Shown here: piece by piece, positions 25,071 through 30,790 of the stretch
How positions within the stretch are numbered: position 1 is the stretch's first letter
Layout of the letters: the number at the start of each line of letters is the position of its first letter
Source of the DNA: a virus
DNA: 38,363 bases
IMG/VR virus record: IMGVR_UViG_3300046001_006545
Span: 1 to 38,363 of that record
Reading direction: 5' to 3' (one strand)
The notes under the pieces: generated by a model
Seen by the model: only the letters and a program-made list of their open reading frames with translations
What the model was told of the DNA's origin: nothing
The model's database searches: none
Made by a program: the position numbers and the translations under genes

Positions 25071-25465
25071 GGGCGGGTGACGACAAGGCGGGTCGACGGC
25101 GCATCCCCGTAGACCTTGCTGCAGATGATGGTGATTATCTGGCTGTCGTCGACCCAGACGATCCCATTCAAGGCGTCGGTAGCCAACTTGAGCAGGTTGT
25201 CGACATCGGGCTTTGACGTTGGCGCCGTGTTGGCCTCACGCTTGGCGCGGCTCCAGCTTTTCGGCTGAACGCTGGTGAACGTGGCGACCAGACACAGCGG
25301 GCCAGACAGGGGCAGGCCCTCGACCCCTGCCAGGAGAGCCATGGCGCGCCCTGACAGCGTGTCTTCGGCTTTGCGGGTGGCTGCAGGGGTATAGACCCGG
25401 CCCTTCGTGGTGGCCCGTCCACGGCCCTTGGCGATGGGAGCACCGGGGATGGTGATGTCAATCAC
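25067..25465 (-). CDS. rusA: RusA-type Holliday junction resolvase
   Basis: A 132-residue endonuclease expected to cut four-way DNA junctions formed in recombination and replication. The family motif SKPDVDNLLKLATDALNG is at residues 83-100, followed by VWVDDSQI, which carries further catalytic acidic residues. The N-terminal GRGRATTKGRVYTP stretch also fits RusA. Length is typical (about 120-140). The start is GTG 25465, overlapping the ERF gene end. It sits with ERF and Gp157-like genes in a recombination operon. Confidence 0.88.
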   Translation of the reverse strand: MIDITIPGAPIAKGRGRATTKGRVYTPAATRKAEDTLSGRAMALLAGVEGLPLSGPLCLVATFTSVQPKSWSRAKREANTAPTSKPDVDNLLKLATDALNGIVWVDDSQIITIICSKVYGDAPSTRLVVTRP

Positions 25466-26210
25466 GCTTCACCTCGAGGATCAGGGCGTCCATGCGCTGC
25501 AGCATCTTGGCGGCCATCTCGGAAGGCGCCACATCAGGTGACACCTTGCGGGCGATCAGGGCGTCTAGACCAGCCCGCAGGCCCTTGCCCTCTGGGCTGT
25601 CGTCGCAGATGTTGGTGGCCTCGCTCGTGGCGTAGGCAACATCCGCCGCGCTGGCGGACAGGTCGTTGACGATCGACGACGCCAAAAGCAACGCGCGGCG
25701 CTTCATCTCCGACATGGCGGGCGGCAACTGGCGGGCGGGTTGCTGGCGCTGGACCTGCCGTTGGTTGTCGCGGCTGTCGTGGTCAAGGTCTGTCCCTTCC
25801 TCGACACGGGGCAACTGCAGGAGGTCGCGGAGCAGGTAGCCTAGCGACGCCGTGCGGGCAGCGGCCAGCGCCTTATCCAGCGGGCGACCTTTCTCGGGGA
25901 TCACGGGCCATTCGCAGGCAATGGGCAGGGAGCCCCCATCAGCGTGGACCACCACCCACTCCGCGAGAAGGACGGCAAAGGCGCCTTGCTCACGCTCGAA
26001 GACCTTAGGCTCGCGGAGCATCGACGACGACGGCACCACAGCCAATCCCGCTGATGCCAGGGCTGCCTTGGCTTCGGCGATCATGGCTTCGGCGCTGGCG
26101 TAGTTGTACTTGTGGAACTTGTTGGTCGCGTCCTTCTCGACGCTGACGGCGACGGCTTGGGCACGGGAAAGAGCAGCAAAAAGCTCGGCCTGTGGGTTTG
26201 TCTCGGTCAT
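25458..26210 (-). CDS. erf: ERF-family single-strand annealing protein
   Basis: A 250-residue protein from ATG 26210, with SD GGAGG about 7 bases upstream. The N-terminal domain has features of ERF recombinases: NKFHKYNYASAEAMIAEAK, then GLAVVPSS, and later DKALAAARTASLGYLLRDLL at about residues 115-134. ERF proteins anneal single strands and help circularise or recombine phage genomes. The C-terminal region (about 150-250) is variable and helical. First gene of the first - strand unit, divergent from the replication operon. Confidence 0.85.
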   Translation of the reverse strand: MTETNPQAELFAALSRAQAVAVSVEKDATNKFHKYNYASAEAMIAEAKAALASAGLAVVPSSSMLREPKVFEREQGAFAVLLAEWVVVHADGGSLPIACEWPVIPEKGRPLDKALAAARTASLGYLLRDLLQLPRVEEGTDLDHDSRDNQRQVQRQQPARQLPPAMSEMKRRALLLASSIVNDLSASAADVAYATSEATNICDDSPEGKGLRAGLDALIARKVSPDVAPSEMAAKMLQRMDALILEVKRD

Positions 26211-26229
26211 GTGTGGGCCTCCTGACGCA

Positions 26230-26259
26230 TTCGTAGCACTGGACATGACTCCACTGCAA
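26230..26259 (-). promoter_or_regulatory. Promoter for the recombination operon
   Basis: On the - strand: TTGCAG (26259-26254), 18-base spacer, TACGAA (26235-26230). The ERF start at 26210 has SD GGAGG. A TGGA...TCCA inverted repeat (26239-26252) lies in the spacer and could be an operator for the adjacent ribbon-helix-helix protein. Confidence 0.65.
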
Positions 26260-26330: not shown

Positions 26331-26483
26331 ATGGCGAAGATGAAAGAGATCCGATTTGACCTTGTGCCCGAGAAGCACAAGAGCTTGGCGAAGATGGCCA
26401 AGGCTGAAGGCAGTTCCATCGCCGTGCTGGTGCGGCGTGCGATCAACATGATGCTCGAGAAGAGCGAGAAGGACGGTGTCTGA
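26331..26483 (+). CDS. Ribbon-helix-helix transcription regulator
   Basis: A 50-residue protein (starts MAKMKEIRFDLVPEKH). Residues 5-10 form a strand, 13-25 a helix, EGSS a turn, and 28-44 a second helix containing IAVLVRRAINMML. This is the Arc/CopG-like ribbon-helix-helix fold, and its length fits a minimal member. Placed as the first gene between divergent promoters, it probably binds there and represses itself and the ERF operon. The stop overlaps the SSB start (TGATG). Confidence 0.8.
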   Translation: MAKMKEIRFDLVPEKHKSLAKMAKAEGSSIAVLVRRAINMMLEKSEKDGV

Positions 26484-26911
26484 TGGCTGGTGTGAACAAG
26501 GTGATCCTCGTCGGCAACCTGGGGCGTGATCCTGAGGTCAAGTACGCGCAGAGCGGCATGGCCATCTGCAAGATCAGCGTTGCCGTGGGCGAGCGCGTCA
26601 AGGACGGCGACGAATGGAAGGAGCACACGGAGTGGTTCCGGGTGACGCTGTTTGGCAAGACCGCCGAGAACGCGGGCCAGTACCTGCAGAAGGGCCGTTC
26701 GGTCTACGTCGAGGGCCGTCTCAAGACCGAGAAGTACAAGGACAAGGAAGGCGTCGAGAAGACCTCGACTGAGGTCATCGCCAGCGTGGTGCAGTTCCTC
26801 GGCGGCGGCGACGGCCAGCGCACGGTGCCCGATGCGGGCGAGCGCAAGAAGGCCGACGGCAAGGCTCCCCCGGCGTCCGACGGCTTTGACGAGAGCGACC
26901 TTCCTTTCTGA
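26483..26911 (+). CDS. ssb: Single-stranded DNA-binding protein
   Basis: A 142-residue SSB. The OB fold covers residues 1-108 and shows family hallmarks: NKVILVGNLGRDPEVKY at the start, TEWFRVTLFGKTAENAGQYLQKG in the middle (residues 49 onward) and VYVEGRLKTEKY. After a Gly/Lys-rich linker the chain ends in DESDLPF, the acidic tip that recruits replication partners. It coats single strands in replication and recombination. It is coupled to the upstream regulator. Confidence 0.95.
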   Translation: MAGVNKVILVGNLGRDPEVKYAQSGMAICKISVAVGERVKDGDEWKEHTEWFRVTLFGKTAENAGQYLQKGRSVYVEGRLKTEKYKDKEGVEKTSTEVIASVVQFLGGGDGQRTVPDAGERKKADGKAPPASDGFDESDLPF

Positions 26912-26919
26912 GGTGACCA

Positions 26920-27555
26920 ATGTTCACGATCGGCGCCCATGAGTTCCCGAGTAAGGCCGCAGCACATCGCCACCTTTCGGCGATGCTTGAGACGTGGTGG
27001 AAGAAGTCGGAGATCACAGGCACCGATCGTGACTTGCTCGAGGTGCTGATTGACCAGCACCCCGAGGCGGCAACCAAGAAGGGGTCAGGCGTGCGGGATT
27101 TCTTTGTCTCGCACGCAGAGCCCAAGGGTCGGTGCTTTTGGGTGTGGCGCACCGACGGCTCTAGCGAGCACTTTTCATTTCTGCAGTGCCTGAACGGGCG
27201 CACACCGGACCGGACCAAGTTGCGGACGGCGTGCCGTGAGGCTGCTCACTCGTCGGTCCATGCGTTCAAGGTCGCTGCCTTTGCCGAAGGTATGGCGACG
27301 TGCGCAGAGACGGGCGCGCTACTGGCCTGGGGCGGCGCTCACGTCGACCACATCGACCCGTTCCACGTCATCGCTGATGCGTGGATCGACGGTAGCGGCG
27401 TCACCGTGGCCGACCTCGCCGCCGACACACCCACCACCTACGCCGACACGTTCGCAGACCCGAAGGTGGCAGAATCGTTCCGAGCACACCACGATCGCGT
27501 TGCACGTCTCAGGGTCGTGAGTGCATTCGTCAACCTGTCAAAGGGTGCCCGTTGA
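26920..27555 (+). CDS. DCL/DUF3223-like protein with HNH-like segment
   Basis: A 211-residue protein. Residues 60-100 include DFFVSHAEPKGRCFWVWRTD followed by HFSFLQCL, resembling the DCL/DUF3223 family found in phages, bacteria and plant plastids. Further on, GAHVDHIDP followed by FHVI resembles part of an HNH nuclease site. In plants DCL has been linked to rRNA maturation, but the phage role is unknown. The SSB and primase genes around it suggest nucleic acid metabolism. Confidence 0.65.
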   Translation: MFTIGAHEFPSKAAAHRHLSAMLETWWKKSEITGTDRDLLEVLIDQHPEAATKKGSGVRDFFVSHAEPKGRCFWVWRTDGSSEHFSFLQCLNGRTPDRTKLRTACREAAHSSVHAFKVAAFAEGMATCAETGALLAWGGAHVDHIDPFHVIADAWIDGSGVTVADLAADTPTTYADTFADPKVAESFRAHHDRVARLRVVSAFVNLSKGAR

Positions 27556-27669: not shown

Positions 27670-27894
27670 ATGGAAAGCACAACAGGCAGTATGCATTCAC
27701 GCCAGACCCACACCCGGTGGTGTCCGGTCTGTCGGACACACCAGCACACACCGATCGGTGAAACGCCGGGACCATGTCGGGCAGAGATCACGGTTGTTGG
27801 CCTCGAGGTCCATCAGGGCTCCGAAGTGCTCGCCATCTGTGACACGGTGCAGACCCGCGATGCCGTCGCGGCCTTCCTCCGGGAGCGTGTGTGA
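27670..27894 (+). CDS. Small Cys-rich protein
   Basis: A 74-residue protein from ATG 27670 with weak ribosome site AAAGG. The N-terminal part has WCPVCRTHQHT and a further Cys, a possible zinc knuckle; the rest is a small alpha/beta segment. Its stop shares bases with the primase start. Function unknown. Confidence 0.6.
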   Translation: MESTTGSMHSRQTHTRWCPVCRTHQHTPIGETPGPCRAEITVVGLEVHQGSEVLAICDTVQTRDAVAAFLRERV

Positions 27895-30263
27895 TGGGCT
27901 GGACCAAGCAATCAATCGAAGACGTCAAACGCGCCGCCAACATCGACGAGGTGGTGGGGGACGATGCCAAACTGACGCGAGAGGGCGACGACATGGTGGG
28001 GTGCTGCACCCTGCCAGGGCACAAGGATGACACCCCGTCGCTTCGGGTGAGCCCGATCAAGGGCCTTTGGCGATGCCACGGCTGCAACTCTGGCGGGTCC
28101 GCTGTCGACTGGCTGATGATGCGGCACAGCATGAAGTTCCCCGACGCCATGCGGGCGCTGTCAGGCAGGACTGGCATCCCCCTCGTCGAGGAAACCAAGG
28201 CCGGGAAGTCCTCGAGGCGCCTCGTTGCCTCCTACCAGTACCAGACGGCTGCAGGTGAAACCCTGTACGTCATCGAGAGGTGGGAGCCAGGGAAGCAGGG
28301 CCGCAGCAAGGACATTCTGCAGCGTGGCGCTGACGGGTCCTATGGCAAGCACCCACAGCAGGTGCTCTACCGCCTGCCCGAGGTGCTGACGGCGGTCGCG
28401 ACACAGCTGCCCGTCTACATCTGCGAGGGGGAGAAGGCCACGGAAGCCCTCGTGAAGTTGGGGGTTTGTGCCACGACTCACGCGGGCGGGGCGAGCGCCG
28501 TCAAGACGTGGCTCGTTGGTGGCTTTGTGGAGCCGTTGCGCGGGGCCGACGTGGTCCTTGTGCCAGACCACGACGACCCAGGCAGGAAGTTGATGGCCCG
28601 CGTTTCCGCCATCGTCAGCACGGTGGCGCGGTCGGTGACGACGGTTCACCTTCCCGTGACCGGCGACGGTGACGACGCGGTGGAGTGGATCGCAGCGGGG
28701 GGTACCAAGCGGGACCTCGAGGGCATGGCCGAAGATTCGGCGGGCTTGGCGCAAGCGGAGAACGCGTCATGGAAGTCGATGCTTCGGCATGGGCGGGACA
28801 GCCTGCGGGGCTCACCCGGGAATCTCGAGCTTGTGCTTGAGAATGACCCGATGGTCCGGGGCTTGTTTGCCTATGACGAGTTCGCTTCTCGCGTCGTCAT
28901 CACGAGACAGCCGCCGTGGTCAGAGCGCAACGCCACCTATCCACGCGCCCTCGTCGATGCCGACATCGTCCGGCTGGCCGTCTACATGGAGAAGGCCGTG
29001 GACGCCGACTTCGCGACCACCACGATCGGTGCCGTCGTCTCGTCAGTCGCCGACCGTGCCGCGTTCAACCCCCTGACGGACTGGCTCGGGCGCCTGTCGT
29101 GGGACGGGACGCCGCGCCTGTCCAAGTGGCTGGCCACCTACGCCGGGGCCGACGACAATGCCTACACGCACGCTGTGGCGCGGGCTTGGGCCATCTCCAC
29201 GGTGGCTCGAGCACTCCGGCCAGGGTGCCAAGTCGACACCACCCTTGTGCTCGAGGGTACCCAAGGTAAGGGAAAGTCCAGCCTGTTGCGCGCCCTCGTC
29301 GGCTCGGAATGGTTCATGGACCACCTGCCCGACTTCTCCAGCAAGGACGCCGCGATCCTTGTCGCCAAGGCTTGGGTCCATGAGCTCTCGGAGTTGGCCA
29401 CTCTCTCGAGGTCCGAGGTCGAGAAGATCAAGCAGTTCCTTTCGCAGCGCCATGACGTCTACCGGGCGCCCTATGCCGCCAACACGATCGACGTGCCCCG
29501 CAAGTGTGTGTTTGCTGCCACGACAAACCGGAGCGACTACCTGCGGGACACCACGGGCAACCGGCGATTCTGGCCCGTGAAGACCACGGCGATCGATGTT
29601 GCTGCCATCGCCCGAGACCGTGACCAGATCTGGGCAGAGGCTGTTGTGGCCTTCAGGGCAGGTGAGGGCTGGCACATCAGCGATCCCGAAGTGCTGGCGC
29701 TGGCGCAGGAAGAGCAGAGCAACCGGGTGGAGGTCGACCCCTGGCTTGACGCGGTCGCCCGTTTCGTGGAAGCTGTGGACCAGACCACCACAGCGGACTG
29801 CCTCAAGCAGATCGGCGTGGAAGTGTCCAAGCGCACACCGCGTGATGGTGAACGGGTGTGCGGGATTCTTCGCTGCCTCGGATGGACCGAGGAACGCCAG
29901 CGCACCACGACAGGCCGAGTACGGGTCTGGAAACCAAAACCAAGTGGACCAGAGGGTGGACCAGAGCTGGACCAAAGGCCTTTGGTCCACACTTTGCCGC
30001 ATTCCAACGCCGTTTCAGAGGCTGGACCAAAGGGACCAGAGAAAAACCTCAAAACACCTGTGGAAGTGGTTGGGGCTCTGCACACCACCACGGTGGGACC
30101 ACACGTTACCACTCCTGTAGATCTTTCATTTTCCTTTGGTCCCTTTGGTCCATTGGTCCCAGGGCGTCCTGATGCGGCGAAAAGTGGACCAGAGGTGGAC
30201 CAAAGGGCTCCGGTCCTTTGGTCCACTGCGGACGATGGTCCAGACCCATGGAGTGGGGAATGA
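27894..30263 (+). CDS. Bifunctional primase-helicase (CHC2 zinc finger, TOPRIM, VirE-like ATPase)
   Basis: A 789-residue replication protein; ATG 27894 is preferred, with GTG 27891 in frame. The zinc-binding primase domain has CTLPGHKDD near residues 37-47 and CHGCNSGG near 61-68. The TOPRIM-like part has ICEGEKATEAL (about 176) and VPDHDDPGR (about 222). The C-terminal ATPase has Walker A EGTQGKGKSS (about 453-462), then KAWVHELSEL and AATTNRSDYLRD, typical of the VirE/virulence-associated E family. The last 110 residues are low-complexity, Pro/Gly-rich and probably disordered; their DNA contains the iteron cluster. It probably primes and unwinds at the phage origin. Confidence 0.9.
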   Translation: MGWTKQSIEDVKRAANIDEVVGDDAKLTREGDDMVGCCTLPGHKDDTPSLRVSPIKGLWRCHGCNSGGSAVDWLMMRHSMKFPDAMRALSGRTGIPLVEETKAGKSSRRLVASYQYQTAAGETLYVIERWEPGKQGRSKDILQRGADGSYGKHPQQVLYRLPEVLTAVATQLPVYICEGEKATEALVKLGVCATTHAGGASAVKTWLVGGFVEPLRGADVVLVPDHDDPGRKLMARVSAIVSTVARSVTTVHLPVTGDGDDAVEWIAAGGTKRDLEGMAEDSAGLAQAENASWKSMLRHGRDSLRGSPGNLELVLENDPMVRGLFAYDEFASRVVITRQPPWSERNATYPRALVDADIVRLAVYMEKAVDADFATTTIGAVVSSVADRAAFNPLTDWLGRLSWDGTPRLSKWLATYAGADDNAYTHAVARAWAISTVARALRPGCQVDTTLVLEGTQGKGKSSLLRALVGSEWFMDHLPDFSSKDAAILVAKAWVHELSELATLSRSEVEKIKQFLSQRHDVYRAPYAANTIDVPRKCVFAATTNRSDYLRDTTGNRRFWPVKTTAIDVAAIARDRDQIWAEAVVAFRAGEGWHISDPEVLALAQEEQSNRVEVDPWLDAVARFVEAVDQTTTADCLKQIGVEVSKRTPRDGERVCGILRCLGWTEERQRTTTGRVRVWKPKPSGPEGGPELDQRPLVHTLPHSNAVSEAGPKGPEKNLKTPVEVVGALHTTTVGPHVTTPVDLSFSFGPFGPLVPGRPDAAKSGPEVDQRAPVLWSTADDGPDPWSGE
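29945..30242. repeat. Iteron cluster, putative replication origin
   Basis: At least 14 copies of GGACCA or its complement TGGTCC occur in about 300 bp, in both orientations: starting near 29945, 29957, 29968, 29983, 30023, 30033, 30096, 30137, 30146, 30154, 30185, 30196, 30219 and 30236. Many extend to (G/A)TGGACCA(A/G)AGG. Positions 29968-29989 form a perfect 22-bp palindrome with half TGGACCAAAGG. The stretches between (for example 30040-30056 and 30121-30136) are A/T-rich compared with the genome. Repeats plus A/T-rich DNA inside a replication gene resemble the lambda ori within O. Confidence 0.75.
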
Positions 30264-30790
30264 GCGCACCTGAACAGAAGGCGCTGGACTGGCTGGCTGC
30301 CAATGTCCGCAGGCCAGCGGGTCCGCTCAAGGTGATCGCCTGTGGTGGGCGGGACTACGCCGATGGGGCCAGGGTCGACCGCATTCTGTCCACCATCCAC
30401 GCGGCGCTGCAGGTGGATGACCTGATCCACGGTGGCGCCAATGGTGCTGACGCCCTCGCCGCCTCTTGGGCTGTCCGGGCTGGTGTCCGGGTTCGGGAGT
30501 ATCAGGCGGATTGGCAAGCTCTCGGGAGGGCTGCAGGCCCCTCGAGGAACGCGGCCATGTTGATGGCTTGCCCTGCCCTCGTTGTTGCGTTCCCAGGTGG
30601 GCGAGGGACAGCCGACATGGTGGCGCAAGCCGGGAAAGCGGGTGTGCCCGTGTGGACGGTCAAGGCCCGGCTCGAGGTGTGGACGCCAAAGGATGCCGCA
30701 CCGGAAGAAGAAGAGCGACGCCAACGACTGGCCAGGGCGATGGTGGCTGGCACTGCGGCGGCTGCAAAGCCTAAGCGGTGGTCACGGTAG
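30260..30790 (+). CDS. SLOG-family (DUF2493-like) protein
   Basis: A 176-residue protein from ATG 30260 (ATGA overlap with the primase stop). It has VIACGGRDYADGARVDRIL at residues 25-43, LIHGGANGADALAASWA at about 55-71, PSRNAAMLMACP and VVAFPGGRGTADMVAQA, the Rossmann-like nucleotide-binding signature of the SLOG/DUF2493 (YspA) family. These proteins are thought to bind nucleotides or nucleotide-derived signals. In phages they commonly sit near replication genes, but the role is unproven. The last 30 residues are basic and disordered. Confidence 0.82.
   Translation: MSAPEQKALDWLAANVRRPAGPLKVIACGGRDYADGARVDRILSTIHAALQVDDLIHGGANGADALAASWAVRAGVRVREYQADWQALGRAAGPSRNAAMLMACPALVVAFPGGRGTADMVAQAGKAGVPVWTVKARLEVWTPKDAAPEEEERRQRLARAMVAGTAAAAKPKRWSR

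Follow-up and report, generated by a model that had tools for sequence, protein, structure and literature searches.

The 38,363-bp IMG/VR virus record analyzed here, the whole of which is referred to as the window, carries a dense set of short repeats inside the 3' end of a primase-helicase gene, and this location raises the question of what the repeats do there and which protein reads them. An earlier note had taken them for an iteron origin, on the basis of at least 14 copies of GGACCA or TGGTCC within about 300 bp, in both orientations. The window contains 44 copies of the hexamer on both strands (27.7 are expected from shuffles), and 14 of the 44 lie at 29945–30242, in both orientations, with six of the 14 inverted. 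The remaining 30 copies never exceed three per 298 bp anywhere outside the array. The genome-wide count thus reveals no comparable density elsewhere, and the window has a single GGACCA cluster. The heptamer TGGACCA is found 17 times in the window (5.6 expected; shuffle maximum 12), ten of these inside the array, where ten of the 14 sites are full TGGACCA. A longer repeat unit, as the note had suggested, does surround the hexamer and is best described as TGGACCA(A/G)AGG.

The array is composed of two iteron sets that flank an AT-richer spacer, with one extra site within the spacer. The left set (29945–30038) comprises six sites, with GGACCA starting at 29946+, 29958+, 29969+, 29983-, 30024+ and 30033+. 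The right set (30137–30242) comprises seven sites, including TGGTCC members at 30137-, 30146-, 30154-, 30219- and 30236- and GGACCA members at 30186+ and 30197+. The central spacer of 98 bp (30039–30136), a candidate melting region, harbors a lone GGGACCA site at 30096. The left set includes a perfect 22-bp palindrome (29968–29989; TGGACCAAAGGCCTTTGGTCCA), which joins two TGGACCAAAGG units head to head exactly as had been described; its exact 20-bp core has no match in viral_contigs. The A/T-rich spacers of the earlier description are only mildly so, the AT content being 50% in the central spacer, 43% in the array and 35% in the window. The origin reading receives no support from cumulative GC skew, since the curve reaches a maximum (30791) rather than a minimum near the array.

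The host gene is a 790-codon open reading frame (27891–30263, plus strand), with the array in its last ~107 codons, and its product is a VapE-type helicase. PF05272 matches residues 401–612 with an E-value of 5.4e-78 and 261.8 bits (gathering cut-off 25), and a PF01807 CHC2 zinc finger spans residues 6–100. The VapE-like helicase domain (29091–29726, plus strand) is thus defined by Pfam and is also seen in an AlphaFold2 model of residues 280–683, a 404-residue fragment modeled from a 29-sequence alignment (A1) with a mean pLDDT of 91. This domain is followed by a predicted C-terminal winged helix (29739–29939, plus strand), which encompasses helices 338–347, 355–361 and 371–383 and strands 386–393 and 396–403 of the fragment, and which constitutes the putative iteron-binding domain on the basis of the model and of the motif association described below. 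The best solved match of the helicase-winged helix part, in both fold and sequence, is PriRep1 in complex with dsDNA (PDB 7PDS; molecule name 'Similar to D. nodosus vapE'). The two superimpose with a Z-score of 34.6 and an rmsd of 3.4 over 389 of the 404 residues, including the C-terminus, and phmmer aligns 7PDS with the helicase protein at E=2.7e-51. The P4 origin-binding domain is absent among the PDB matches listed, which does not imply a different fold.

Downstream of the winged helix, the array encodes a 107-codon tail (29940–30260, plus strand) that is rich in Pro and Gly (18 P, 13 G), in agreement with the low-complexity segment noticed earlier, and for which a single-sequence model of weak confidence (pLDDT 42) predicts no secondary structure. 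Because GGACCA read in frame encodes Gly-Pro, the composition of the tail would fit a Gly-Pro repeat selected at the protein level, with the hexamer as its by-product. However, the codon phases of the 14 sites are split into 7, 2 and 5, so that they do not form a one-frame protein repeat: just seven are in the Gly-Pro phase and six of the 14 are inverted. Moreover, the array begins after the end of the reading frame in 45 of the 53 loci that have a 3' array (44 without redundancy), and before it in the other eight. A selected protein repeat is, therefore, a most improbable explanation.

The window is the only one of these 53 loci in which the array is located entirely inside the reading frame, where it spans positions -315 to -18 relative to the frame end instead of lying immediately 3' of the initiator gene. 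The next longest overlap, in L058, is due to a single upstream site. Likewise, the 106 residues that extend past the aligned domain represent the longest tail among 128 loci (median 8.5). The first stops in the other two forward frames are 59 and 76 codons on, and a single base error would consequently not restore the usual layout. Since 7% of shuffles keep a 107-codon stretch open, the open tail provides weak evidence for selection, and chance loss of a stop codon is enough to explain it.

A replication and recombination neighbourhood lies beside the helicase gene, with an ERF annealing protein (25458–26246, minus strand), an SSB (26483–26911, plus strand) and a DUF3223 protein (26920–27555, plus strand). 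On the other side, a YspA/cpYpsA-related SLOG protein is encoded by the next reading frame (30260–30790, plus strand), which has an ATG at 30260 that shares bases with the stop of the helicase gene (ATGA). A small 50-codon frame (26331–26483, plus strand) is positioned just upstream of the SSB gene, and its 50-residue product resembles, by eye, a small ribbon-helix-helix protein. Such a resemblance would be expected if the repeats were operators of this or a similar regulator, controlling transcription across the gene end. Against this, no promoter-like or terminator-like match was found at 29700–30500, there is no GGACCA cluster near 26331, and the identity of the motif in relatives follows the winged helix of the helicase, as detailed below; the operator explanation is accordingly quite improbable.

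A comparison with relatives was carried out on 130 VapE loci, comprising 80 viral and 45 genomic loci found by protein, four found by motif pattern, and the window. In the 80 viral loci, GGACCA never exceeds three copies per 400 bp. A de novo scan of these loci revealed other short repeats packed behind many VapE genes, including TGGGAC, GGTGACA, ACCCGGAC, TGCAACA and GGTTTAC, among others. The best 7-mer cluster is strong (log10 p < -11) in 55 of the 130 loci, and is positioned at the VapE 3' end in 38 of the 55 (three of the 38 being motif-selected) and elsewhere in 17, of which 15 are 0.8–3.4 kb downstream and two upstream. Without redundancy, 42 strong clusters remain, 30 at the VapE 3' end and 12 elsewhere.

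The protein-selected loci were further analyzed in a more even-handed test, which required the window behind the gene to beat the best of 20 shuffles by at least two copies. The 123 loci were reduced to 83 non-redundant ones, 82 of them with enough sequence. A significant short-repeat array is present behind VapE in 37 of these 82 loci, as against seven of 249 random control windows from the same loci. The remaining 45, including L003, L005 and L009, fail the array test. L003 has the highest identity (45%) among the protein-search relatives and is without an array, and L002, second by E-value, has one. With regard to relatives that keep the protein and lose the repeats, the GGACCA sequence is thus indeed lost, but an array of other sequence is present in the 37 loci. 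A profile search with A1 returned mostly the same contigs as the protein search, and its loci were kept outside the statistics; matches from a search of 385 genomes (367 with a match), mostly to the N-terminal zinc finger, were kept outside the analysis.

Arrays were also observed at other positions. L107 displays a GGCAACA array right behind VapE plus an 11-copy TCTTACA array ~2.2 kb downstream, and L078, L079, L085 and L123 have strong two-orientation arrays 0.8–1.5 kb behind VapE, not adjacent to it. In L018, L019, L021, L030, L074 and L097, one-orientation GACCACC or GACTACC arrays are found 2–3 kb behind VapE, and these differ from the two-orientation iteron arrays.

The geometry of the sites was compared in 40 arrays. 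Neighbours in the same orientation are 8–11 bp apart in 125 of 202 cases, and neighbours in opposite orientation in 13 of 150. A full core, consisting of tandem sites, a gap of 40–125 bp and an inverted tandem, is found in 22 of the 40 arrays; when orientations were shuffled 2000 times, 3.8 arrays on average and never more than 12 had one. Counting arrays with one side of the core or both gives 32 of the 40 (shuffles: mean 14.6, maximum 25), which leaves eight without even a one-sided core. The core elements of the window are the pair 30024/30033 and the triple 30137/30146/30154; because the gap is broken by the lone site at 30096, the window falls only in the looser class, outside the 22 full cores. 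For the comparison of AT content, which covered 39 arrays, the lone site of the window was ignored. The gap exceeds the locus in AT content in 33 of the 39, but exceeds the remaining spacers of its array in just 20 of the 39 (p=0.13). A polarity rule seen by eye, with 5'-TGT...CCA-3' pointing toward the spacer, was dropped, as L010 and L125 seem to break it.

These data bear on the possibility that the array is a chance or recently expanded repeat with no function. The 45 of 82 relatives without a significant array at the VapE 3' end could be read in this way, but the density of the repeats is far above that of shuffles, and the same place and geometry recur in diverse lineages. We, therefore, regard a functionless repeat as highly improbable.

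The GGACCA motif itself was followed with a pattern search for clustered TGGWCCA, which listed 80 of at least 119 stretches. Among the matches listed, three of the 80 loci (L185, L203 and L220) have a VapE match, and all three have GGACCA arrays directly 3' of the VapE gene, L203 and L220 being identical over the stretch shown. In L203, an AT-rich stretch that includes a run of CA dinucleotides separates the two repeat sets. A fourth VapE locus with the motif, L260, came from the 130-locus scan and not from the matches listed; its two GGACCAC clusters, each confined to one orientation, are located behind VapE and 4.9 kb upstream. L124 has a GTGGGACCAG array behind its VapE gene. A Pfam scan of reading frames from the pattern-search loci covered ten proteins, including the VapE proteins of L185, L203 and L220, and found no Pfam family for three of the ten. 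Two-orientation arrays of GGACCA were also found 3' of genes for D5_N/DUF5906-type helicases (L156:5776-5966, L157:798-1072 and L222:1051-1397), so that a second helicase family may use the motif too. The cluster of L175 is 3' of a Toprim/AAA_25 protein. A different arrangement is found in L145, L162 and L165, viral contigs without a VapE match, where 19–25 GGACCA per 400 bp are nearly all in one orientation; these dense runs are possibly Gly-Pro coding repeats.

The protein that reads the iterons was sought through the association between motif and protein sequence in 40 non-redundant proteins (from 52; three of the 40 motif-selected), for which motif matrices, winged-helix identity and helicase identity were compared per pair. 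With the helicase controlled for, motif similarity is associated with winged-helix similarity (partial r=0.26, p=0.0005); with the winged helix controlled for, there is no association with the helicase (r=-0.02, p=0.63). In a second run, the winged-helix association was obtained in seven of seven settings, one of them restricted to protein-selected loci (r 0.21 to 0.31, p=0.001 each), and four helicase slices of equal length gave r values between -0.05 and 0.06 with the motif. Linkage of neighbouring DNA could partly be behind the association. The earlier note had considered both the primase-helicase and the small regulator at 26331 as putative binders; the motif association points to the former, and the reader of the iterons is most likely the C-terminal winged helix of the helicase itself, rather than the 26331 regulator.

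Taken together, the array is probably a cis replication element, an origin or an origin plus crr of the P4-crr/PICI/Sfi21 kind, that has been captured in coding sequence. In the mechanism that we propose, the 14 short sites, observed as a left set of six, a right set of seven and a single one in the 98-bp AT-richer spacer, would be bound at TGGACCA(A/G)AGG by the winged helix at the C-terminus of the helicase that this gene encodes. Tandem sites ~9 bp apart on each side, facing each other, would bring together two hexamers, which would melt the spacer and load themselves; fork assembly would follow, carried out by the primase-like N-terminal part, SSB and a polymerase. Most array-bearing relatives have the stop codon of the gene shortly ahead of the array, which is non-coding; in the window no stop codon is left, and the ribosome would consequently read through the putative origin to the next gene.

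Sixteen annotated VapE-type phages and satellites, hand-picked from hit lists and including Sfi21, which was chosen by name, were then compared. A strong 3' array (log10 p -10 or better) is present in 11 of the 16 and is the top cluster of the stretch in all 11; in Pseudomonas phages U5 and Haddon it lies 381 bp behind the VapE gene. The array behind the gene is weak in Sfi21, Javan21 and Emery, with a blind-scan score of -6.3 for Sfi21 as the second cluster of its locus, and the blind scan detected no cluster behind the VapE gene in Enterobacter phage Arya and Bacteroides phage BU1-1. On P4, the same scan returned crr as the first cluster and ori as the second.

A broader proposition, to which we give even chances, is that VapE-type phages share one origin design, with convergent ~9-bp tandem sites around a 40–120 bp spacer behind the DNA that encodes the winged helix. 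Iteron and winged helix would co-diversify while the geometry stays fixed, and the window would represent a case in which this origin has turned protein-coding. Such co-diversification, if true, would provide each lineage with its own replication 'address'. The origins of many uncultured phages would then be readable from the sequence downstream of VapE, and specificity groups for replication, i.e., initiator-origin pairs, would be predictable from the winged helix and a 7–8 bp motif. Furthermore, one stretch of DNA would be both the origin and the coding sequence for the C-terminus of its initiator, so that the two would be inherited together.

Among known systems, lambda ori had been put forward as the parallel, with iterons inside the O coding sequence. 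The lambda iterons are four direct repeats of ~18 bp in the middle of the gene, O is a non-helicase initiator, and the host DnaB is loaded through P. In the window, by contrast, short two-orientation sites lie at the end of a gene that itself encodes a helicase, and P4 crr, the PICI/SaPI origins and Sfi21 are closer. A search of the literature for VapE names together with iteron or origin words found no report, and a looser one showed none that addressed the matter by title among the 15 of 38 papers listed; the original papers on PriRep1, SaPI, P4 crr and Sfi21 may describe such elements. PriRep1 (7PDS) is likened to the window protein by its helicase-winged helix part.

The P4 crr (NC_001609 4291-4590) contains ten annotated 8-bp 'ori type 1 repeats', five plus five in both orientations over ~270 bp, and resembles the window array in its two clusters of short two-orientation repeats. 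The type 1 repeat is GGTGAACA, as opposed to TGGACCA(A/G)AGG, and crr is positioned directly 3' of the alpha primase-helicase gene, after the stop codon, whereas the window array is within the reading frame. In its N-terminal part, alpha belongs to another type of primase. A winged-helix origin-binding domain of P4 was reportedly described by Yeo et al. in 2002. P4 has a second, separate rep_origin ~4.5 kb from crr, with type 1 repeats at both. This arrangement, together with the annotation of the Sfi21 site as a phage inhibitory sequence, would be consistent with the array being an initiator-binding control element, crr-like and acting in copy control or as a phage-inhibitory site, with melting and priming elsewhere in the genome. 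The window, however, has just one GGACCA cluster, and a single site beside the initiator gene is found in Sfi21 and, in the part of PMC6092414 available, in PICI islands. A pure control element thus appears unlikely, and a replication element with origin function is the preferred reading.

For E. coli PICIs, the available part of the same source describes iteron sets that flank an AT-rich region beside the initiator helicase, at one site immediately 3' of the initiator gene (PMC6092414). According to an excerpt of PMC7581432, the C-terminal domain of SaPI Rep acts on iterons directly downstream of the rep gene. The PICI/SaPI origins and the window are alike in layout, with two iteron sets around an AT-rich region. 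The PICI origin, however, lies immediately 3' of the gene, whereas the window, a phage record that includes a terminase gene and is no evident satellite, has its array inside the gene; because the array is not 3' of the gene, it is not classified as a PICI-type origin. In the same excerpt, the C-terminal domain of SCCmec Cch2 binds short repeats of a putative origin that closely follows the helicase gene, but the iterons are three non-coding AAGTG copies and the helicase is of a different family (PMC7581432). The crenarchaeal plasmid pRN1 likewise needs a region just behind its replication gene, as stated in the part of PMC4234260 available.

In Sfi21 (NC_000872 34487-34784), an 'origin of replication, 302 bp non-coding region, phage inhibitory sequence' is annotated at the 3' end of a putative primase gene, beginning 29 bp ahead of the stop codon. 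This origin has AGTAACT-type repeats on either side of an AT-rich stretch, as in the window layout, but it is mostly non-coding and has another iteron, whereas the window array is coding. Arrays in many relatives, the Sfi21 origin and P4 crr all occur at this place, in agreement with the earlier proposal that the 3' end of the primase-helicase gene houses an iteron origin. What sets the window phage apart from the known P4-crr/PICI/Sfi21 kind is that its array is embedded in coding sequence.
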